This document shows positions 83 to 43,506 of a stretch of DNA of 43,506 bases, piece by piece. Under the pieces are notes generated by a model. That model worked only from the letters and a program-made list of their open reading frames with translations. It did no database searches and was not told where the DNA came from. A program made the translations under genes and the position numbers. Numbering within the stretch: position 1 is the first letter of the stretch; every line of letters starts with the position of its first letter. The stretch comes from a virus, in the IMG/VR virus record IMGVR_UViG_3300012354_000004, positions 1 to 43,506 of that record; one strand, given 5' to 3'.

Positions 83-820
83 AGGAAAGCAGATAAGACT
101 GGCAAGTTTCTCATTGGCATCGTGATCTTGACATTGGCTTTAATCACTGTTGGATTGCTTTATCCTCCTGCTAAGGGATACACAGATGGAGCTGAGAAAG
201 TCTTAATCTTGGTCCGGGTCGTGATGACCGTAGTCTATGGCCATGTGATCCACTCACTCAGACGGCAATCCGCAACGCTAGCCATTCACCCTGTACAAGT
301 ACCTGTACAGGGTGTACAGATTGAGCAGATTGACGAACTAAAAGGGCAGATTGCAGAGTTAGTAAACAGTGTTTCTCAAGTACATCTGTCCATGTCGAAT
401 CTTGCTCATTCTGTACAGATCAACGAGCAATCTGGACAAACTTGTACAGAAATATATACACATGTACAGGCGTTTAAGATGAAAATAGACAGTGTACATA
501 CTCCTGTACATGTTCTAAATTTACTCAATCAGACCGTAGAAGATTGCGAGCAGGCAACCAATGAAATACCCATTGAAGAGCAGATAAGCAGTGATGTTAC
601 ACAAGTTGATGAAAGCACACCAGAAGCAGGTATAGCTGTTGTTTATCCCTTTGTGCCTGGTATCTCTGAGGAGGTTGTAAAGCAGATTATTGACTTGCAT
701 TTAGAGGGTGTGGCATGGTCTGCAGTTGGTACCCAGCTCTCGAAAAACTACAGCCGTATTGTGAAGCCTGTACGTGACGCATATACACAAGCGAACGGTA
801 GCATAGACACGGATAAATAG
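1..820 (+). CDS. Membrane protein with C-terminal DNA-binding-like domain (3' part; starts at 43222)
   Basis: This is residues 69-340 of a 340-residue protein whose start lies at 43222 across the circular junction. Residues about 36-56, 61-83, 104-125 and 136-155 are hydrophobic, giving about four membrane spans. A polar, partly coiled-coil linker follows (about 165-285). The last 50 residues (IIDLHLEG...YSRIVKPVRD) resemble the C-terminus of the FtsK-like ATPase encoded just upstream (YQRIIKPVCD). The gene is the last of the 40864-820 operon and is followed by a terminator at 940. The linker DNA holds eight TGTACA words. I infer a membrane partner of the ATPase that also contacts DNA. No named family is recognised. 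Confidence 0.85.
   Translation, partial: AVMLDIGGFALSSMADHARTNGDAQAARKADKTGKFLIGIVILTLALITVGLLYPPAKGYTDGAEKVLILVRVVMTVVYGHVIHSLRRQSATLAIHPVQVPVQGVQIEQIDELKGQIAELVNSVSQVHLSMSNLAHSVQINEQSGQTCTEIYTHVQAFKMKIDSVHTPVHVLNLLNQTVEDCEQATNEIPIEEQISSDVTQVDESTPEAGIAVVYPFVPGISEEVVKQIIDLHLEGVAWSAVGTQLSKNYSRIVKPVRDAYTQANGSIDTDK
292..510. repeat. Array of eight TGTACA palindromes inside the coding sequence
   Basis: TGTACA occurs at 292, 304, 313, 412, 443, 463, 493 and 505. Seven copies share a reading frame (Val-Gln/His codons) and the one at 443 is in another. Three more lie in the noncoding DNA after the gene (886, 900, 919). A given hexamer is expected about once in 4 kb. The array covers the linker between the membrane part and the C-terminal DNA-binding-like domain. 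It is a candidate protein-binding array. Confidence 0.75.
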
Positions 821-882
821 CCTGTCCAGATAAACCTATACAGGCAAGCAGTGTTATAGACAAAAACATAGACACAAGCAAG

Positions 883-908
883 CGATGTACATGTGTCTAT
901 GTACATCG
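883..908. promoter_or_regulatory. Inverted repeat made of two TGTACA sites
   Basis: CGATGTACAT at 883-892 and ATGTACATCG at 899-908 form a perfect 10-bp inverted repeat around a 6-base loop. Each arm contains one TGTACA, and a further copy lies at 919-924. It lies between the stop at 820 and the terminator at 940. It is probably a binding site for the factor that reads the array at 292-510, though it could also act as an RNA hairpin. Confidence 0.55.
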
Positions 909-939
909 TTGGAAAAGATGTACAGAAAAGAGTTTCTCA

Positions 940-975
940 GTGAGGAAGTATAAAAGCTTCCTCACTTTTTATTTT
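940..975 (+). terminator. Rho-independent terminator of the FtsK-like operon
   Basis: GTGAGGAAG (940-948) pairs perfectly with CTTCCTCAC (957-965) around an 8-base loop. The run TTTTTATTTT follows at 966-975. It ends the plus-strand operon and overlaps the last codon of the convergent minus-strand gene at 974. Confidence 0.9.
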
Positions 976-13212: not shown

Positions 13213-13541
13213 GCGAAATAGTACAGATACAGGGCCTTTCCACTGTTTTTAAAATGATGGATGACTTTTCTCTGAAGGCAGAGAAGCGCGCGAATGAAGC
13301 GTTGCAGGGAGCTGGCATTGAATGCCAGGCGCTAGCAAAGCAAAACTGCCCTGTAGATACAGGCCGTTTGCGCGCAAGTATCCAATATGAAAAGAAGCCT
13401 TTACTGGTAACAGTCTCTACTAATGTAAGCTACAGCAAGTATATAGAGTTCGGGACTGTCCATATGCGCGCACGCCCGTACTTGTACCCTGCCTGGAAAA
13501 CTGCAGCGCAACATCTCATAGAGGAGTTGAGCAGCCTATGA
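13209..13541 (+). CDS. HK97 gp10-like tail/head-tail joining protein
   Basis: A protein of 110 residues. It shows the family signature ALAKQNCPVDTGRLRASI, then SYSKYIEFGT and RARPYLYPAW near the C-terminus. It shares a four-base overlap with the gene on each side. Members link the finished head to the tail terminator. Confidence 0.88.
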   Translation: MSEIVQIQGLSTVFKMMDDFSLKAEKRANEALQGAGIECQALAKQNCPVDTGRLRASIQYEKKPLLVTVSTNVSYSKYIEFGTVHMRARPYLYPAWKTAAQHLIEELSSL

Positions 13542-13954
13542 GTAATCAAACGTCTCTTGTGGAGCTGCAACCCGCTATCTTTACAAAACTGACAGCGGAT
13601 AGCGCACTCATGGCAATTGCAACAGGCGTATTCGATTTTGGCGCGGTGCCTGTTAATCAGCCGTTCCCGTATATCACGCTCGGAGACGACACAGAAGCGC
13701 CGATGAACGCATTTGGCACGCGTGGCTATGAGGCGACGGTCACGCTTCACATTTGGGACAACACACCAAATTTCAAGCGATGTAAAACCATCCTGGCACA
13801 TATGAACCGGCTGCTTGATCAACAGGCGCTCACATTGGCGACACAACATCACGTCGGCACGTGGTACGACTTTAGCGCAACTATGAATGATCCCGGCCTG
13901 GACAATATTCGGCATGTGCCGGTCAGGTATCGGTTCGAAACTCAGGAACAATAA
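13538..13954 (+). CDS. Tail completion/terminator protein, DUF3168-like
   Basis: A protein of 138 residues: LQPAIFTKLTADSALMAIATGVFDFGAVPVNQPFPYITLGDD, then EATVTLHIWDNTPNFKRCKTILAHMNRLLD. This is the DUF3168/gpU-like fold, which forms the ring that stops tail-tube growth. Its position between the gp10-like and tail-tube genes agrees. Confidence 0.87.
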   Translation: MSNQTSLVELQPAIFTKLTADSALMAIATGVFDFGAVPVNQPFPYITLGDDTEAPMNAFGTRGYEATVTLHIWDNTPNFKRCKTILAHMNRLLDQQALTLATQHHVGTWYDFSATMNDPGLDNIRHVPVRYRFETQEQ

Positions 13955-13974
13955 ACGTTATGGAGACAAAAAAA

Positions 13975-14205
13975 ATGGAAACAAAGAGAGAAACTTTGCA
14001 GGAGCGCATAGAGCGTGACTTTACCTATCATGAGACAAAACCTGGACAGCAGGAACGCTATGTACAGCTACGTGACGAATACAAGAAGTTAGCATTACTT
14101 GTAGCTGAATTGACTCCTACAAGTCGTGAACAATCTCTTGCTCTTACTGAGCTTGAATACAGCAATATGATGGCAAACGCCGCCATTGCAAGGAACGAAG
14201 CATAG
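13975..14205 (+). CDS. Small charged helical protein before the tail-tube gene
   Basis: A protein of 76 residues from the ATG at 13975, set by TGGAGA eight bases upstream; an ATG at 13960 would itself overlap that ribosome site. It is highly charged and helical (ETLQERIERDFTYHETKPGQQERY...YKKLALLVAELTPTSREQ). No family is recognised. Confidence 0.6.
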   Translation: METKRETLQERIERDFTYHETKPGQQERYVQLRDEYKKLALLVAELTPTSREQSLALTELEYSNMMANAAIARNEA

Positions 14206-14225
14206 CAAGAAAGGATTAATACATC

Positions 14226-14624
14226 ATGGCTATTGCAGCATATCCAGCGACTTTGAAAATTGGAGCTAATGCCATTCTCGACATTCAGACGCATGACTTG
14301 CCGTTCAAGATGGATACAGCGGAAACCACCGCATTTAGCGGTAGTGGTGGAGCTGCTATCGGCACAAAAACCTTTATCCCTACCCTGCTTGGTATGCAGT
14401 GCAAGATAGCTGGTTCGTGGAATAAGGCCGATACGAACGGACAGGCAACGATGGAAACGAACTTCTTTGCCAGGACAAAAACGACGTTTATCTATTCACC
14501 GAACGGCACGAATACATACACGTTCGGAGCGTGGATAACTGACTATGGCATCAAAACCGACCCAAAGAACAAAGTTGACGTTGATTTCGGGTTGCTCATG
14601 GATGGAAACGTCACGCTGGCATAA
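14226..14624 (+). CDS. Major tail tube protein (short paralogue)
   Basis: A protein of 132 residues preceded by AAAGGA. It shows the tail-tube pattern: LKIGANAILDIQTHDLPFKMDTAETTAFSGSGGAAIGTKTFIPTL, a strand-rich middle, and GLLMDGNVTLA. The next gene has the same MAIA start and a similar TTxF...KxFxPT block, so the two look like a duplicated pair. Tail-tube subunits stack as hexameric rings around the tape measure. Confidence 0.8.
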   Translation: MAIAAYPATLKIGANAILDIQTHDLPFKMDTAETTAFSGSGGAAIGTKTFIPTLLGMQCKIAGSWNKADTNGQATMETNFFARTKTTFIYSPNGTNTYTFGAWITDYGIKTDPKNKVDVDFGLLMDGNVTLA

Positions 14625-14651: not shown

Positions 14652-15587
14652 ATGGCTATAGCAGGATATAACAGTCAGGTGCTCGTTGCCTCTTTGCCGA
14701 GTGTGGCTTTTACTGACGAGGCTACGAGCAGCTCAGACTTGACGACCTACACCATTTCGAATTCCGTTAAGCGGTACTTTGATAAGAATGTGGCAACGGT
14801 TGTGCAGGCGCAATACGACGAAACACAGCAAATCCAGATTACAGGCAGTCCAACGGGTGGCACATTCGTGCTCCGTTTTGGTGGCCAGAATACTGCGACG
14901 ATTAACTGGAATGATAACGCGGCTACCGTGCAAACAAGGTTGCAAGCCCTATCATCGATAGGGGCTGGTAACGCGTTGGTAACGGGCGGCCCTGGGCCCG
15001 CTACACCTTTTGTGGTTGAGTTTGCAGGTACTATGGCAAAAACACCAGAGGCGCTTATCACGCTGCAGACGAATAGTTTGACAGGCGGCTCTTCACCATC
15101 CGTAGCAATCACCGAATTGCAATTAGGTGCTACGTGGGCAGTGATCACCAGTGGTTTCACGCTCTATCGTGCTAACGCTCGTGTCGTTTTTGCTGTAGCT
15201 CAAGTAGCAGGAACACAAGTGCGGTTTCATAGTGGAAACTACTTTCCCTATGCAGTGATTGCAGAGGCTGCCAGTTGTGAATTCCAGGGCAAGATGAATA
15301 CTGAGGATACCACAACCTTTGTGAGCGCCGCCGCGTCAAATGGCGCGAAAAGTTTCACGCCTACCACGATAGAAGGCACGCTCAAGTACGGCTCATTCTG
15401 GATAAATATTACTAGGGCTCAAAGTCTGGTTGCCAGGGATTACCTGATTGTCTCGTTCCAATTGCCGACAGGCAACCGCTACGAGGGCTTCTGCTATGCC
15501 AGCGACTGCAACATCAAGGATGATGTCAACAAGGTAGTTACTCAGGATCTGGTGTTTCAATTAACCGACGAGTTTTTTAACGCATAA
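14652..15587 (+). CDS. Second tail-tube protein with inserted beta domain
   Basis: A protein of 311 residues. The C-terminal half (EFQGKMNTEDTTTFVSAAAS, SFTPTTIEGTLKYGSFW) resembles the tail-tube protein at 14226. Residues about 55-160 are an inserted domain: IQITGSPTGGTFVLRFGGQN, ATVQTRLQALSSIGAGNALV, SLTGGSSPSVAI. This is a module I know from surface-exposed phage tail proteins and large repetitive bacterial proteins. It may decorate the tail surface or act as the second of two tube proteins. Confidence 0.75.
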   Translation: MAIAGYNSQVLVASLPSVAFTDEATSSSDLTTYTISNSVKRYFDKNVATVVQAQYDETQQIQITGSPTGGTFVLRFGGQNTATINWNDNAATVQTRLQALSSIGAGNALVTGGPGPATPFVVEFAGTMAKTPEALITLQTNSLTGGSSPSVAITELQLGATWAVITSGFTLYRANARVVFAVAQVAGTQVRFHSGNYFPYAVIAEAASCEFQGKMNTEDTTTFVSAAASNGAKSFTPTTIEGTLKYGSFWINITRAQSLVARDYLIVSFQLPTGNRYEGFCYASDCNIKDDVNKVVTQDLVFQLTDEFFNA

Positions 15588-27054: not shown

Positions 27055-27095
27055 TCTTTCTTGTGAGCTTGTTTTTTGTATCCCTCACAAGAAAG

Positions 27096-27136
27096 AGTAT
27101 ACCAGAACGTTAACGTATTGTCAAGTACGTTAACGT
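27096..27136 (-). promoter_or_regulatory. Early promoter with two ACGTTAACGT operators
   Basis: On the minus strand, TTGACA (27119-27124), a 17-base spacer and TATACT (27096-27101) form a near-consensus promoter. The palindrome ACGTTAACGT occurs at 27107-27116 in the spacer and at 27127-27136 upstream of -35, exactly 20 bp apart. This is typical of repressor dimers on one face of the helix. Confidence 0.8.
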
Positions 27137-27444
27137 GTGTGTATGTCAGGCGGTGTAGATGGTGAGCAAGATACCACTTCACAGCGCATTTTCACGCACC
27201 CGTTGCCAGCGGAAAATACTTTCACCACCCTGTACGTCTTGCCCTTTGCCGTGAAAACTTTGTCTTTCATCAGGCTGTGCAGGCGGCTTGCCAGTTTCAT
27301 CACATCGACATAGGTGAGCAGGCCCAGAGGAAAAAGGTCGTGTGCCATGTGTAGGATATCCACGTCTTCCGTAGCGGGCTGAGGCTTCTTGTTGTTGAAA
27401 CCTGTAAAGGCTGTGCCCTCGGGGATGCGTTTATTATTGGGCAT
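27130..27444 (-). CDS. Unknown early protein
   Basis: A protein of 104 residues (ATEDVDILHMAHDLFPLGLL, KDKVFTAKGKTYRVVKVFSA). The start lies within the end of the helix-turn-helix gene upstream (11-base overlap), so they are likely co-translated. The end overlaps the distal operator of the next promoter. No family is recognised. Confidence 0.6.
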   Translation of the reverse strand: MPNNKRIPEGTAFTGFNNKKPQPATEDVDILHMAHDLFPLGLLTYVDVMKLASRLHSLMKDKVFTAKGKTYRVVKVFSAGNGCVKMRCEVVSCSPSTPPDIHTR

Positions 27445-35060: not shown

Positions 35061-35972
35061 CTATGCTGCCTCTCTTTGCATAATTAGTCTGCCTATAAAT
35101 TCAGCAACCTGCAGAACAACTGCATTACCTAACGTTCTAAGTCTGTCCACCCTATTGGAAATCCCATTAGCCACTCTACCCACTCTGGGTTCAGTTGCCC
35201 ACTGGCCTGTCCCTGTGCTGCAATTTCGCGCAAAGGACGAGAGTTCTTGTCCTGCGTTTCCTCTGAAGACTTCCCTGAACGCCAATCGCTCGCGATTGGC
35301 GTTGGCCATTTGTTGCCGATCGCCATTCTGGCCAGCGAAGGGCGAACATTCTTGCTGCCAGGCGAGCGGTTCGAGCTGCCACCTGTTGCATCCGTCCCTA
35401 ACGGCGTTGGATACATCACCTGGTGTGTGAGGTTGGTAGTAAATCCGCTCTGTATCCTTGCACTCTTGCTGTCCGCCACTTGCGGGGTACGCCACAATGA
35501 AAATGCGTTCTCTAAGGTGCGGCGCGCCAACGGATGCCGCTGATATAATTGTCCATTCCGCATCATACCCGCTCGTGGCCAGATCCCCGAGAACTCTATC
35601 AAGTCCCCTGTGAACGAGAGCTGCGACGTTCTCCACAAGAACATAGCGAGGTCGTAATTCGCAAATGAGACGGTAGAACTCGGACCATAGCCCACTGCGT
35701 TCCCCTGTAATGCCTGCTCGTTTTCCGGCACTGCTGATGTCCTGGCAAGGGAATCCTCCAGCGATAAGATCGACTCGCTCAAGCGGGGTAACTCCTCGGA
35801 TATCTCCAAACCTGGCAGTACTGGGCCAATGTTTTGCAAGAACTTTCGACGCATACTCATCGTTTTCTATCTGCCACCGGCATTGCATGCCAGCCCTTTC
35901 TAGTCCCAGATCTATCCCTCCAATGCCCGAGAAAAGACTACCAAAAGTTAACGTTGTTTCATTGCTGATCAT
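35061..35972 (-). CDS. DNA (cytosine-5) methyltransferase
   Basis: A protein of 303 residues; the ATG at 35972 follows GGAG, and a TTG at 35990 is an alternative. Motif I is FGSLFSGIGGIDLGLERAG, motif IV GGFPCQDIS with the catalytic Cys, motif VI LVENV, motif VIII HLRERIFIVAYP, and motif X VDRLRTLGNAVVLQVAEFIG. The short variable region fits a phage orphan enzyme that protects against host restriction; no cognate endonuclease is seen. Its stop abuts the primase start. A second long gene lies inside it in another frame. Confidence 0.95.
   Translation of the reverse strand: MISNETTLTFGSLFSGIGGIDLGLERAGMQCRWQIENDEYASKVLAKHWPSTARFGDIRGVTPLERVDLIAGGFPCQDISSAGKRAGITGERSGLWSEFYRLICELRPRYVLVENVAALVHRGLDRVLGDLATSGYDAEWTIISAASVGAPHLRERIFIVAYPASGGQQECKDTERIYYQPHTPGDVSNAVRDGCNRWQLEPLAWQQECSPFAGQNGDRQQMANANRERLAFREVFRGNAGQELSSFARNCSTGTGQWATEPRVGRVANGISNRVDRLRTLGNAVVLQVAEFIGRLIMQREAA
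35129..35860 (-). CDS. Overprinted phage protein inside the methyltransferase gene
   Basis: An open frame of 243 codons on the same strand as the methyltransferase, shifted by one base. Its product carries motifs that I recall from separate proteins encoded with phage cytosine methyltransferases: IWPRAGMMRNGQLYQRHPL, FSLWRTPQVADSKSA, NKWPTPIASDWRSG, and LNPEWVEWLMGFPIGWTDLE at the C-terminus. Such order and conservation are not expected of a chance shadow frame. No strong ribosome site is seen at 35860. The function is unknown, perhaps DNA modification or target choice. Confidence 0.65.
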   Translation of the reverse strand: MSMRRKFLQNIGPVLPGLEISEELPRLSESILSLEDSLARTSAVPENEQALQGNAVGYGPSSTVSFANYDLAMFLWRTSQLSFTGDLIEFSGIWPRAGMMRNGQLYQRHPLARRTLENAFSLWRTPQVADSKSARIQSGFTTNLTHQVMYPTPLGTDATGGSSNRSPGSKNVRPSLARMAIGNKWPTPIASDWRSGKSSEETQDKNSRPLREIAAQGQASGQLNPEWVEWLMGFPIGWTDLER

Positions 35973-35976
35973 CGGG

Positions 35977-37446
35977 TTACATCTCCTCAATCAAACTATA
36001 TTTGCTACCTTGCCTGCCTTTGACTTCTTCTACAACGCCGTCGCGGGCAAGGCTGGAAAGGTACACTTTCAAATCTTTGCTTTCCTTGCGTAAGTACCTC
36101 GCTATGTCGCGAGCTGAAGGCGTACGGTTGTTGCGGTCTGCTAGATGCTTCATCGTTTCGATAATGCGCTCTTCCATCGTCTGTTGTTGCTCTTTGCCGG
36201 GTGTATTTACCTGCGCATAAAACTGATGCAAGCTGTAACGCCATGATTCCGCGACTTCCTGGGCCAGCGCCCAATGGTGCAATGAAATGGTATTTTCACC
36301 AGATACAGAGGCTATCAGCGTGGCTACACGCATGGCCTTTGTTGAGAGTCTGTCATAACTGCCGTCTAAGTCTTCATTCGGGCGGCCTACTATCATGGCT
36401 TTTAGTGCAGACCTGTAGCGTTTCCAGGCTTCATACGCCACGTCAGAGACGCGAATGCAGGTTTCTTTGCGCTCTTCTAGAACGGTTGTGATATGACGCC
36501 CGGTAGGCTTATCTTTTTCATCCTTCTCTGCTTCTATATCGATACGTGGGCTACCTAACCGCTCATGCCAATGACGTAATGCCTGGGCAAGAGAGCCCGG
36601 GACTGGCAACTTTCCTAATTTAAAGGGCTCGTCTATGTACGTATCGGGCGGTGGTGTCACGAAGATGAATCGAGCCCAGAATCCATCGGACCAAAATTCA
36701 CTGCCACGCTTCGCGTTGTCTCGCACACTCGAAATGGTCATATTCCCGATCATCGATAAGTAGGGAGCAATGATCGCTTCACTTGAGCGTGAAATGGTTG
36801 TGTTGCGGTACTTATCTGGTGAACCATCGAACGTCAATAGCAAGTCGGCGTAGCTGGCCATCGTGCTATTTTGTTTCAGCATCCCTTTCACGAATTTCCC
36901 AAATTCGTCATTAATCCATCCAAGTTGACCAGGGACAGCCAGGCGTAACTTCCATTCTTCCTGCTCAAGATAGGGCAGCGAACCATAATCTTTCGGTACC
37001 CACCCGGCCATATCTGACATCAGTTTCTCGGGTGTAGTTCTATCCGCACCTAACATCCAATCCAGACCAGCGGCTTTTAAGACTTTACTACCTACCCTGG
37101 CAGTGGTTGTTTTCGCGTACAGGCTCGTCCTGGCTGCCAGGGCAATATAGAGCGGGGTATATTGTTGCTCTACAAAATCAGCATAGATACGCCTGCCTGC
37201 TATTGTCGAGAGCACCCACCAGAAACATGCATCGTGAAAACCTTCGTAGCCTTCAGGGCTGAGCAAACGAGAATACGCTTTGTACTCTTCCCTGAGTGGC
37301 AATACGCCGCTTGTGAAGCCAGCAGGGAATGCAATAGGCCCGGGCAAGGGGGGCATGTCTATGTCTCTTACAGAAGTTGTAGCAGGCGTGTCATGCTCTG
37401 TTGGTGTCGTGCCCAGGCTTTCATTTCTAATCGCATAGAGTACCAT
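35977..37446 (-). CDS. DUF3987-like replication protein with C-terminal winged-helix-like domain
   Basis: A protein of 489 residues. The core (about 50-400) resembles DUF3987-type phage and plasmid proteins (FHDACFWWVLSTIAGRRIYA, ARTSLYAKTTTARVGSKVL, GQLGWINDEFGKFVKGML, DGFWARFIFVTPPP), thought to be primase-helicase partners. Residues 425-489 (ERIIETMKHLADRNNRTPSA, RDIARYLRKESKDLKVYLSS) are a separate domain that recurs in the regulator at 38596. It lies directly upstream of the methyltransferase and primase. A replication role is likely, but the enzymatic activity is not certain. Confidence 0.75.
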   Translation of the reverse strand: MVLYAIRNESLGTTPTEHDTPATTSVRDIDMPPLPGPIAFPAGFTSGVLPLREEYKAYSRLLSPEGYEGFHDACFWWVLSTIAGRRIYADFVEQQYTPLYIALAARTSLYAKTTTARVGSKVLKAAGLDWMLGADRTTPEKLMSDMAGWVPKDYGSLPYLEQEEWKLRLAVPGQLGWINDEFGKFVKGMLKQNSTMASYADLLLTFDGSPDKYRNTTISRSSEAIIAPYLSMIGNMTISSVRDNAKRGSEFWSDGFWARFIFVTPPPDTYIDEPFKLGKLPVPGSLAQALRHWHERLGSPRIDIEAEKDEKDKPTGRHITTVLEERKETCIRVSDVAYEAWKRYRSALKAMIVGRPNEDLDGSYDRLSTKAMRVATLIASVSGENTISLHHWALAQEVAESWRYSLHQFYAQVNTPGKEQQQTMEERIIETMKHLADRNNRTPSARDIARYLRKESKDLKVYLSSLARDGVVEEVKGRQGSKYSLIEEM

Positions 37447-38222: not shown

Positions 38223-38489
38223 CTTGTACGGACAACAGTACTATTTGTTATTTGCACGTCAGCTGTCAATGTGTCACAGTTTCGAGTTGTCACACCTACA
38301 TAGAATCTATGACAACTCAAAACAATTATCATATCTATATAATAATATATATAATAATATAATAATATATAATATTATACCTCTTTTGTCTTGTACGGAC
38401 AACAGTATGTATATCCCTTGCCCTGGAATGAGTTGTCATATACTTCACTTCCCTGTGACAACTCAAAACTGTGACACATTGACAACTCA
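38223..38489. other. Candidate replication origin in a 636-base gene-free region
   Basis: No gene is seen from 37960 to 38595. The centre, 38321-38380, is 56 of 60 A/T. Around it are an 18-bp exact direct repeat (38223-38240 and 38390-38407, starting CTTGTACGGACA), a 31-bp inverted repeat with one mismatch (38264-38294 and 38454-38484), and five TGACAACTC elements (38284, 38310, 38429, 38456, 38480; two inverted). Iteron-like repeats beside an unwinding-prone AT stretch, next to the replication operon, suggest ori. Confidence 0.65.
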
Positions 38490-38515
38490 GCTCAAATATT
38501 CCCTTGCCTGGGGAA

Positions 38516-40099: not shown

Positions 40100-40301
40100 A
40101 TTATTATACTGTTGATCCGTTTGAGGATACTGAAAGTGCTACACCATACGCCTGGCCCTGCTCTTACTGGGCAGTTACATTGCCATCGATCCGTTTGAGG
40201 ATACTGAAAGTATCAATGCCAAATCGCTGTAGCAGCTCCGCCTGAAGTTACATTGCCATCGATCCGTTTGAGGATACTGAAAGTTTGAGGATATTGAAAG
40301 T
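40100..40301. CRISPR. CRISPR-like mini-array, three 37-base repeats and two spacers
   Basis: Repeats lie at 40174-40210 and 40247-40283 (identical, 37 bases, starting GTTACATTGCCATC and ending GGATACTGAAAG). A first copy at 40100-40136 has only its last 23 bases intact. Spacers are 37 and 36 bases (40137-40173, 40211-40246) and unrelated to each other. A degenerate half-repeat follows at 40284-40300. The GTT start, GAAAG end, ATCC/GGAT inner pairing and even spacing are CRISPR-like. There is no cas operon in the window. Iterons are the alternative. A repeated TTGACGTGCC flanks it (40089, 40301). Confidence 0.5.
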
Positions 40302-40395: not shown

Positions 40396-40440
40396 GCACG
40401 GTATCTCTCTCTCGCCCCTGAGATACCGTGCTTTTCTTTG
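40396..40440 (+). terminator. Strong rho-independent terminator
   Basis: GCACGGTATCTC (40396-40407) pairs perfectly with GAGATACCGTGC (40420-40431), followed by TTTTCTTTG. It ends the 38596-40092 operon, including the CRISPR-like array. No gene is seen between 40093 and 40553. Confidence 0.9.
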
Positions 40441-40479
40441 TGCTTTTTTCGTTTTCTTTCGTCGCTCCCTTGACACGAC

Positions 40480-40509
40480 TTGACAATACTGCACTTTTAC
40501 TGCTATCCT
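40480..40509 (+). promoter_or_regulatory. Promoter of the 40554 operon
   Basis: TTGACA (40480-40485), an 18-base spacer and TATCCT (40504-40509) with an extended TGC in front. A second TTGACA lies ten bases upstream (40470-40475). It follows the terminator at 40396 and precedes the ribosome site at 40539. Confidence 0.6.
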
Positions 40510-40553
40510 TCCTAATGCGCCACAAAAATGACGGTATTGGAGGGAGAGCGTTT

Positions 40554-40763
40554 TTGAGTTCAGATGAGTTTATTTCAGAGAAAGAGGCAGCCCAGATTCT
40601 TGGTGTCAATCCTCGAACAGTGAGTAGATGGGCTGATCAGGGCAGACTTACCAGGTACAAACAATTTGGATTGAGAGTGAGGTATAAGCGGAGCGAGATA
40701 GAGAATTTCGCAAAGCCGATCCCTGATGTGGATCTCGATGTTGAAGATGACAAAACGGAGTAA
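40554..40763 (+). CDS. Excisionase/MerR-type regulator with TTG start
   Basis: A protein of 69 residues. The TTG at 40554 is chosen because GGAGGGAG lies nine bases upstream; ATG codons farther upstream have no ribosome site and would precede the promoter. Residues 7-55 (EKEAAQILGVNPRTVSRWAD, LTRYKQFGLRVRYKRSEIEN) form a HTH_17 fold. It heads the FtsK-like module and may control it. Confidence 0.7.
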   Translation: MSSDEFISEKEAAQILGVNPRTVSRWADQGRLTRYKQFGLRVRYKRSEIENFAKPIPDVDLDVEDDKTE

Positions 40764-41180: not shown

Positions 41181-41693
41181 ATGGCAAGCTTACGATCTGG
41201 CATGAACAGCATGGCTGCTAGTCGCGGCAACGTCCCACTGCTGAAGTTGGTGTTAGGCGTCGTATTGCTCGGCTTTTTCGTGTTGGCGCTCATGATGGAT
41301 GTACAGACCAGCGAAGCCTTCATCTTGAATGGAGGCAAAGTTGCGGTAACATCACTCAACTGGAACATCCTACGTCAACCCCTCGATCTGGCACAAGGCA
41401 ATCTGGATATCAATATGGCCAAGGCTGTTATGTGGGGATGGGGATGCCTGCTCATCTACCTGGTGTGTGTGGTCGGAGAAACCACCATACAAGGCCGACT
41501 TGGAGGCATCTTCAAGACTGGCGCGTTTCTGATTGTTGCGTTTGACTTCTGGACCAACATGAACTATGGCACGCTGCCAAGCGGATGGGGTGGTCAAGTG
41601 GGTTTCGCGGTGATCACCAGTTTTATCGTTGCTTTCTTTGGTGTGTTGGGATTGAACTTAATTTTTAGCTCAATCACTGAAATGACCCGATAG
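41181..41693 (+). CDS. Membrane protein with about four spans
   Basis: A protein of 170 residues preceded by GGGAGGT. Hydrophobic spans lie near residues 20-40 (LLKLVLGVVLLGFFVLALMM), 84-101 (VMWGWGCLLIYLVCVVGE), 112-125 (TGAFLIVAFDFW) and 142-163 (FAVITSFIVAFFGVLGLNLI). It sits directly before the FtsK-like ATPase and may form part of the same membrane complex. There is no known family. Confidence 0.7.
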   Translation: MASLRSGMNSMAASRGNVPLLKLVLGVVLLGFFVLALMMDVQTSEAFILNGGKVAVTSLNWNILRQPLDLAQGNLDINMAKAVMWGWGCLLIYLVCVVGETTIQGRLGGIFKTGAFLIVAFDFWTNMNYGTLPSGWGGQVGFAVITSFIVAFFGVLGLNLIFSSITEMTR

Positions 41694-41704
41694 GAGACGG
41701 AAAG

Positions 41705-43207
41705 ATGGATGATCAGCAGCTAGAAATCAAGCGATATCCGATGAAGCAGCAAGCGACCTTTGCGGGCGGTGCAGCCGTTACGATGGCGTTAGTAGACGCA
41801 ATAGCGCATCTGGGGCCAACTGGCTTGCTGATCAGTGGGCTCGCGGGCTATGTCGCATGGAAGCATGGGCCGGAGCTCTATGAGCTCGCTGCCCGAGAGG
41901 TGAGAGGGATAATCCCCTCTCACTCTTCAGAAACCAGCCAGCAGAAGAGTGAGCAAAGTCATGGCCGTAGTTTCTGGGACCGAGCAATGGGACGTTATCC
42001 TGACCCTGGTGTGCATGCGCAAGATGATGCGCATGGCGAAGAGTGGCGTGATGATTGGTACGACCAGGACGACGAGGTTCCTGGCATCGATCAATCCATG
42101 TTCACCTTCTCTCAGCTGCTCGCCTCTGGTTTCAAGCCAACGCTGCATAAAATCTTTTTAGGCCGCCTGGCCGATGGGACCGACGTGTTTGTCGAGGCGA
42201 AAGACCTCTGCCATATTGCGCTCGCTGGCTCAACTGGCCAGGGGAAAACATCCCTCATGCGTCTGATTATGGCTCAGTTGTGCTCTATCCGGGTCAGCGT
42301 TGTGCTGCTCAATCCGCACTACATGGTCTACGATCGCGATCACAATGAGGACTGGACGCCGTTCACGCCCTACTTAGCGCGCAATCCGCTCGATTACGTC
42401 AAGGTGGATAATATCGCGTTCATTCTTAAGTGGATTATCGAAAAGACGCTGGCCCGGCGCATGGAACTAGCACGCGCTGGTAAATCGGTCGGCAAGCCGT
42501 ACTTTATCGTGATTGATGAGTTACCGGCCATTGTCGCAGAGCGCAAGGAATGCGCCGACTATGTCGCGAAACTGCTACGTGAGGGCCGCAAGTATGGCAT
42601 TTACTTGATCGTTGCATCGCAAGACTTCCTGGTAAAAACCACGGGTATGGATGCGCAAGGGGGTGCGGTGCGCAAATGCTTCCGTACTGCCTGCTATGTT
42701 GGCGGTGATTCGACCACGGCCAATGTGCTGCTAGAGAAACAGGCAACGCCCATTCCAGAAACGGACCTGGGCAAAGGCATGATGATGCTACGCTGCTCGG
42801 CAACGACAAAGGCGGTACTAGCAAGCGTGCCGTACTGCGACAATGAAGCGCTCTATCAACTGCTCGGACCTTCGACATTCACCGTTCACCATTCACCAGA
42901 AACGGCCCTACCTGAGCTCAGTGAAACATTCACCGATGACGTGAAAGTGAATACAGAGAATGCAGTGAATGAGCCTGTGAAGCCAGTGAATGCCCCGGTG
43001 AATGCTGGTGAATATTCACCGACCACTGAGAATACTTCACCGGTATTCACGCCTGCAGAAGAGGTACAAGTTTTGCTTGCATATGCTGAAATGCTTAAGG
43101 CTGAGAAGCCAGTGACACGAACAGGTATTCGTGATCTCCTGCAATGGGACAACAAACAATACCAACGGATTATCAAGCCGGTGTGTGATAAACACCATAT
43201 TGGATAG
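41705..43207 (+). CDS. FtsK/TraB-like DNA translocase ATPase
   Basis: A protein of 500 residues preceded by GGAGACGG. Two short hydrophobic stretches (about 18-53) suggest a membrane anchor. The ATPase spans about 150-385: Walker A GSTGQGKT (175-182), Walker B FIVIDE (267-272), then LLREGRKYGIYLIVASQDFL. Residues 391-448 are a disordered linker, and 452-500 are a helix-turn-helix-like domain (RTGIRDLLQWDNKQYQRIIK). This order (membrane, motor, DNA-reading domain) is that of FtsK and of actinobacterial TraB, which moves double-stranded plasmid DNA between cells. The substrate here is not known. The linker DNA carries a hexamer array. Confidence 0.85.
   Translation: MDDQQLEIKRYPMKQQATFAGGAAVTMALVDAIAHLGPTGLLISGLAGYVAWKHGPELYELAAREVRGIIPSHSSETSQQKSEQSHGRSFWDRAMGRYPDPGVHAQDDAHGEEWRDDWYDQDDEVPGIDQSMFTFSQLLASGFKPTLHKIFLGRLADGTDVFVEAKDLCHIALAGSTGQGKTSLMRLIMAQLCSIRVSVVLLNPHYMVYDRDHNEDWTPFTPYLARNPLDYVKVDNIAFILKWIIEKTLARRMELARAGKSVGKPYFIVIDELPAIVAERKECADYVAKLLREGRKYGIYLIVASQDFLVKTTGMDAQGGAVRKCFRTACYVGGDSTTANVLLEKQATPIPETDLGKGMMMLRCSATTKAVLASVPYCDNEALYQLLGPSTFTVHHSPETALPELSETFTDDVKVNTENAVNEPVKPVNAPVNAGEYSPTTENTSPVFTPAEEVQVLLAYAEMLKAEKPVTRTGIRDLLQWDNKQYQRIIKPVCDKHHIG
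42877..43050. repeat. Array of ten ATTCAC/GTGAAT hexamers in the ATPase linker
   Basis: ATTCAC occurs at 42877, 42891, 42928, 43014 and 43045, and its complement GTGAAT at 42947, 42965, 42986, 42998 and 43008. That is ten in 174 bases; chance predicts about 0.1. Copies fall in all three reading frames, so the protein sequence does not explain them. GGTGAATATTCACC (43007-43020) is a full 14-bp palindrome. This points to a DNA-level binding array. Confidence 0.8.
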
Positions 43208-43221
43208 AGAGGATAAGTCGT

Positions 43222-43506
43222 ATGGCAGCAATCAGCAATCAATCCTGGCGTGATCGTGCACTTGAACGCGCCGAGATTATCACCGATGCATGGGAAGTCA
43301 CAAAAAGCTATGCCGGGCGGCTCGCTGAATGGATTCTCTTCCTGTGCATGATTTTTTGTATTATCGAAATCCTGCCAGGCGTCACTTTTCCGACCTGGGC
43401 CAGCAATGTTGTATTAGGTGTGCAGGCCGTGATGTTGGACATCGGCGGTTTTGCTCTTTCGTCTATGGCTGATCATGCACGCACCAATGGTGACGCGCAG
43501 GCAGCC
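43222..43506 (+). CDS. Membrane protein with C-terminal DNA-binding-like domain (5' part; continues at 1)
   Basis: Start ATG 43222 with GAGAGGATAAG upstream, 14 bases after the ATPase stop. This part encodes residues 1-95, including the first two membrane spans (WILFLCMIFCIIEIL and the stretch after NVVLGVQAV). The frame continues from base 5 of the window to the stop at 820, for a total of 340 residues. See the entry at 1-820. Confidence 0.85.
   Translation, partial: MAAISNQSWRDRALERAEIITDAWEVTKSYAGRLAEWILFLCMIFCIIEILPGVTFPTWASNVVLGVQAVMLDIGGFALSSMADHARTNGDAQAA
43425..43506. repeat. Terminal direct repeat, right copy (circular overlap)
   Basis: Identical to bases 1-82. Joining the copies gives one uninterrupted gene, so the molecule is circular or circularly permuted. 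Confidence 0.93.

Follow-up and report, generated by a model that had tools for sequence, protein, structure and literature searches.

TGTACA words in a membrane protein gene of a tailed phage: putative in-cis protein-binding sites of a proposed module for DNA translocation or segregation

Introduction

Why should the gene of a phage membrane protein carry eight copies of the six-base palindrome TGTACA, with three more just behind its 3' end? The window analysed here is the complete virus record IMGVR_UViG_3300012354_000004 with a length of 43,506 bases. An initial annotation of this window had pointed out the cluster, had argued that codon choice alone is not its cause, and had named possible binding proteins. 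We determined whether the array exceeds what the encoded protein dictates, which genes surround it, whether it recurs in related phages, and which explanation accounts best for it.

Results

The TGTACA array

All eleven copies were located where the initial annotation had placed them. The coding part of the array (292–510, plus strand) has copies at 292, 304, 313, 412, 443, 463, 493, and 505, and occupies linker codons 165 to 236 of a 340-aa protein. The non-coding part (886–924) has copies at 886, 900, and 919. In total, TGTACA occurs 25 times in the window, as eight copies in the gene, three just 3' of it, and 14 elsewhere, and 100 dinucleotide shuffles of the window yielded 10.3 copies (sd 3.3, largest 19). 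The 14 background copies amount to about one per 3 kb, close to the previously estimated one per 3–4 kb. When all 6-mers were scanned, no other word of the record clustered as strongly within 640 bp as TGTACA at 292 (log10 score −13.9). Phase 2 is used by seven of the eight coding copies, each of which is read as Val-Gln or Val-His, and the copy at 443 is in phase 0, which is the single out-of-phase copy that had been described. Two pairs, 292/304 and 493/505, are spaced by 12 bp. The reported perfect inverted repeat was likewise found; it measures 10 bp (883–892/899–908) and contains the copies at 886 and 900. Further 3', a terminator-like hairpin is located at 939–966 (plus strand); three such sites occur within positions 1–2400, compared to 2.0 in shuffles.

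The contribution of codon choice was determined by synonymous shuffling. Shuffling the array gene's own codons gave a mean of 1.97 TGTACA copies and a maximum of 7, and none of the 20,000 shuffles reached 8. Similar values were obtained for the full-length, joined gene (mean 1.80, maximum 7), and shuffles drawn from the codon usage of the window gave a mean of 0.75 and a maximum of 5 (n = 5,000). As three copies are non-coding, the coding copies occur in mixed frames, and their count lies above that of the codon shuffles, the TGTACA array is real and independent of codon choice, in agreement with what the initial annotation had proposed.

The array gene and its neighbours

The first 82 bases of the record are identical to the last (1–82 = 43425–43506). 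The record is therefore circular, and the array gene, with its start at 43222, spans the join of the two ends: its first 95 codons lie at 43222–43506 and the remainder, which follows over the circular join, at 83–820 (both plus strand). The joined translation comprises 340 aa, with hydrophobic segments up to residue 154, the word-bearing linker, and predicted C-terminal HTH-like helices. This C-terminal domain (668–784, plus strand) rests on a weak model that consists of helices only, and displays a short similarity to the C-terminus of the neighbouring translocase. No match to a zinc-finger Pfam family was obtained in the 340-aa protein, whose N-terminus is membrane-type. A classification as SpdB-like membrane protein was rejected, because DUF2637 (PF10935) had no match at E 10 in the record, nor in the joined 340-aa protein.

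The gene directly upstream encodes an FtsK/HerA-type DNA translocase (41705–43207, plus strand), which ends 14 bases 5' of the array gene, matches DUF87 with 32.7 bits (cut-off 23.2), and falls into an FtsK/SpoIIIE-like PHROG. Its C-terminus is predicted to form a three-helix HTH-like domain (43052–43204, plus strand). It is preceded by the first gene of the module, which encodes a small membrane protein (41181–41693, plus strand). When both window C-termini were compared with known folds by Foldseek and VIA-align, only weak HTH-type matches were obtained (Z ≤5.6); for the translocase C-terminus, the gamma domain of FtsK (2ve8) was among the Foldseek rows at E 4.9, and the best Z of 5.6 was to other HTH folds. 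The C-termini of the array protein and the translocase have NKQYQRIIKPVCDKH / SKNYSRIVKPVRDAY in common, and about 1 in 10,000 shuffles aligns equally well.

The translocase gene carries a second array; neither this array nor the circular join or the translocase context had been part of the initial annotation. Five copies of GTGAAT and five of ATTCAC are located in the linker-coding stretch at 42877–43050, in all three frames and directly 5' of the part encoding the HTH-like domain. Synonymous shuffles of this gene gave a mean of 2.6 and a maximum of 8 such words (n = 5,000), compared to the ten observed.

Relatives of the module

Direct searches of viral, genome, and phage sets with the array gene or the window translocase revealed nothing close, and a plasmid search likewise yielded nothing close, with weak FtsK-type matches only. 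No translocase was detected in 38 viral records related by portal protein, many of which are fragments; the portal protein alignment itself pointed to Sphingomonadales only. Among the loci compared up to that stage, the best TGTACA clustering was two copies in 640 bp. One motif scan gave no match, and the next identified G039. Altogether, one motif scan and two alignment scans led to three further records with a homologous translocase, all from soil phages: G039 (IMGVR_UViG_3300015203_000002; 62,147 bp, with its own 99-bp terminal overlap; 48% translocase identity), G045 (3300005532_000245; best segment with 52%), and G046 (3300005332_000001; 48%). The translocases of these relatives, used as queries in turn, gave weak matches or none.

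Phage structural genes are present in all three relatives, and in each a membrane/HTH gene lies 3' of the translocase, in G045 with a short ORF in between. The membrane/HTH gene of G045 is homologous to the array gene of the window (E 1e-13), and those of G039 and G046 form a second homologous pair (E 2e-47). Between the G039 gene and the array gene no homology was detectable (E 0.058). The small membrane proteins preceding the translocases of the window and G039 are homologous (E 8e-16). A simple hydropathy scan detected no N-terminal membrane segment in the translocases of the window, G039, and G046, and one in that of G045.

The expectation that related genomes carry TGTACA words at this place, which the initial annotation had raised, was borne out in part: G045 keeps TGTACA together with TGCACA/TGTGCA, whereas G039 has GATATC at the same place and G046 is without an array. 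Of the eight GATATC copies in the membrane/HTH gene of G039, five occupy phase 0 and the other three phase 2; elsewhere between 4302 and 14582 the word does not occur. Synonymous shuffles of it gave a mean of 2.3 and a maximum of 7 GATATC copies (n = 20,000), and when all 64 six-base palindromes were considered, the maximum was 6 in 3,000 shuffles. In the G045 gene, the five TGTACA copies represent a modest excess (P 0.0014). The degenerate word TGYRCA occurs there 15 times in three phases, compared to a shuffle mean of 6.4 (P 5e-5), and the top word, TGCACA, is present ten times within the gene, with a further copy just past it. In the membrane/HTH gene of G046, no word exceeded the shuffles despite the same module. 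The translocase linkers of all three relatives showed weak word signals at most.

Thus, the position of the array was confirmed in two of three relatives, all of them found after the window. In both G039 and G045, the most clustered 6-mer of the contig is the array in the membrane/HTH gene. By gene length, the chance of this is about 2% per relative and, by our own rough estimate, about 1 in 1,000 for at least two of three. The arrays of the window and the two array-bearing relatives have their first codon just past the membrane part (165, 159, and 165). As a control, the 6-mer scan was performed on 28 other sequences, including G001 and L078, both closely related to the virus of the window. 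Clusters at least as strong as the weakest array occurred in two of the 28 (L079 and L080), and both are same-strand in-frame protein repeats.

Viral contigs were also scanned for triple TGTACA, which yielded at least 120 loci. Among the matches listed, 97 of 120 loci have five copies or fewer per 640 bp, and in-frame repeats account for several of the richest. One of the loci, L133 (IMGVR_UViG_3300010400_000033, 13419–14228), has eight TGTACA copies at and before an ORF whose start appears YefM-antitoxin-like by eye and is followed by a zinc-ribbon-like part. Another, L082 (IMGVR_UViG_638276408_000001, 26,111 bp; 2623–2806), has nine irregularly spaced copies between two genes.

Other features of the record

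Otherwise, the record represents a tailed phage and encodes an integrase. At 40114–40283, three copies of GATCCGTTTGAGGATACTGAAAG occur at spacings of 74 and 73 bases, and two of these copies are part of a longer repeat. The arrangement is CRISPR-like, a mini-array with two spacers, neither of which matched the loci compared (best 12–13 mismatches). A C-5 cytosine methylase is encoded at 35061–35990. Among the 53 scanned ORFs, one matched the Acb2/Tad1 hairpin-type proteins, which are known from anti-defence sponges. In the AT-rich intergenic region 38230–38500, GAGTTGTCA / TGACAACTC words occur in inverted orientation together with repeats of ATATAATA, and the region resembles an origin or operator region. 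In related phages, TAAGAA/ATTAGAA-type words are clustered in an initiator-like gene (G007, 27078–27330, L067; G039, about 15438–15470, L216), perhaps representing an in-gene origin.

Discussion

Alternative explanations

As one alternative, the array might simply reflect protein composition, namely a linker with many Val-Gln and Val-His pairs that uses preferred codons and was spread by local duplication. Seven of the eight coding copies do share a phase and encode these residues, the three adjacent copies at 292–318 could have arisen by local duplication, and in-frame protein repeats gave equally strong clusters in the two control sequences mentioned above. However, eight copies were beyond all 20,000 synonymous shuffles, the three non-coding copies and the one in another phase escape this explanation, and in the relatives the words occur in two phases (G039) or three (G045) with different peptides. 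We therefore regard a compositional origin as improbable. Even less credit is due to RNA structure in the transcript. The regions 270–530 and 815–980 fold more stably than dinucleotide shuffles (z −5.3 and −6.4, respectively), but this is due to the TGTACA words themselves: compared to synonymous shuffles in which the TGTACA codons are kept, the excess is small (z −1.1), with 68 of 500 shuffles folding equally well. In addition, equal or better folding was obtained for 86 of 333 segments of the record, and an Rfam search gave no match. RNA structure was thus set aside as the cause and appears very improbable indeed.

Two further explanations invoke a protein that reads the words in another context. 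In two studies, the operators of YefM-YoeB and Axe-Txe are described as having the core TGTACA in pairs 12 bp apart (PMC4803016, PMC7730913), so that the array might serve as operators for a YefM/Phd/Axe-type antitoxin of host or phage. The core and the spacing of the pairs 292/304 and 493/505 agree with those descriptions, and L133 has its YefM-like ORF beside an eight-copy TGTACA array. The array differs from the operators, as far as these are described there, in its eleven copies, which lie inside and 3' of a gene and not at a promoter, and in a record without a PhdYefM match: PF02604 had none at E 10, with 9 of 14 control genomes positive, and was absent from the matches listed for the 53 scanned ORFs (25 of 37 families). 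G039, moreover, has a different word. Membership in the YefM/Phd group was rejected, as no PhdYefM antitoxin gene was detected beside the words, and an operator function is very unlikely. The array might instead represent a replication origin or centromere (partition site) of a plasmid-like phage state, with an initiator or partition protein as reader and the translocase being incidental. Origin-type sites can lie within genes, as in lambda O; the record is circular, and related phages have short-word arrays in an initiator-like gene (G007, see above). On the other hand, the AT-rich region 38230–38500 with its inverted repeats resembles an origin more than the array does, the array recurs beside the translocase and not beside replication genes, and a further word cluster exists in G039 at about 15440. 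We accordingly rate an origin or centromere as unlikely, though not far-fetched.

A putative set of in-cis binding sites

We favour the view, with a probability of roughly 0.55, that the array consists of putative in-cis protein-binding sites of a phage-borne DNA translocation or segregation module, placed inside its own coding sequence. This reading draws on the many-copy linker words beside an FtsK-type motor, which vary between phages. It is modelled on clt/TraB and sps/SpdA2 of Streptomyces plasmids. According to PMC4170104, SpdA2, a DNA-binding protein from the spread/stability set of plasmid pIJ101, binds the palindrome sps within its own coding region and has an effect on stability; sps comprises 12 bp, is repeated two to three times, is conserved among plasmids, and is located beside a TraB-type system. 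Similarly, according to PMC3583192 and PMC5365140, TraA/TraB read repeated clt words, which can overlap a tra gene and vary between plasmids, and TraB is an FtsK-type motor with a C-terminal HTH-type domain.

As in the described SpdA2/sps case, a short palindrome is repeated here inside a coding region beside an FtsK/TraB-like motor; the encoded protein is predicted to bind DNA. In contrast to what is described there, it is the membrane protein gene of a tailed phage, the word has 6 bp and 8 + 3 copies, and the words vary between relatives; the array protein has no zinc-finger-like match and a membrane-type N-terminus instead of the conserved SpdA N-terminus. The likeness to clt/TraB, as far as those sources describe it, lies in an FtsK/HerA-type motor beside or overlapping a cluster of short words, and perhaps in the predicted HTH-like C-terminus of the motor. 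In contrast to clt/TraB, the element is a phage and not a plasmid, most of the words lie in the next gene and are palindromic, and transfer is here an analogy only.

The module would be made up of three genes, for a small membrane protein, an FtsK/TraB-like motor, and a second membrane protein. The motor and the second membrane protein each end in a predicted HTH-like domain, and the recognition sites would be placed in linker-coding stretches of the module's own genes. One of the C-terminal domains might then bind TGTACA many times and anchor the circular phage DNA to membrane and motor, as proposed here by analogy with sps/SpdA2 and clt/TraB. The likeliest reader, as we infer, is the C-terminal domain of the array protein itself, followed by the C-terminus of the translocase. 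This choice fits the candidate binder named in the initial annotation, the C-terminal domain of the array gene, which agrees with the predicted HTH-like fold; the HTH proteins also named there are encoded at 1551–1811 and 40428–40763. We likewise infer that the array serves DNA movement, anchoring, or segregation.

Several observations count for such cis sites: a TGTACA count above codon shuffles and above every other word of the record, non-coding copies and mixed frames, array starts just past the membrane part, other words at the same place in relatives (GATATC eight times in G039, TGYRCA 15 times in G045), a second array in the translocase linker, and a motor accompanied by HTH-like C-termini. 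Counting against them are the missing array in G046, one of three relatives, and the G039 gene, which is not detectably homologous. The modest excess of exact TGTACA in G045, the weak signals in the relatives' translocase linkers, and the weak HTH fold matches (Z at most 5.6) point the same way. A simple rule by which each gene carries the words for its own domain is opposed by the presumed reading helix, which is common to both window C-termini, yet the words of the two arrays differ.

Plasmids already offer precedents for palindromes inside genes as well as for words that vary next to an FtsK-like motor. Within the open-licence literature, as judged by title and the start of the abstract, we found no description of a phage combining an FtsK-type motor with such sites. 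A broader proposal is tentative, and we consider it rather doubtful: tailed phages of soil may possess a self-contained conjugation- or segregation-like translocation module with address labels inside its own linker frames, each just 5' of a possible reader domain, so that word and reader would be inherited or swapped as a cassette. If this is true, tailed phages would follow the logic by which Streptomyces plasmids transfer or segregate double-stranded DNA, and cis sites would stay linked to their reader by hiding in disordered coding linkers. Words exceeding codon shuffles in linkers that adjoin FtsK-like motors would then provide a search rule, and a joint change of word and reader domain would become testable.
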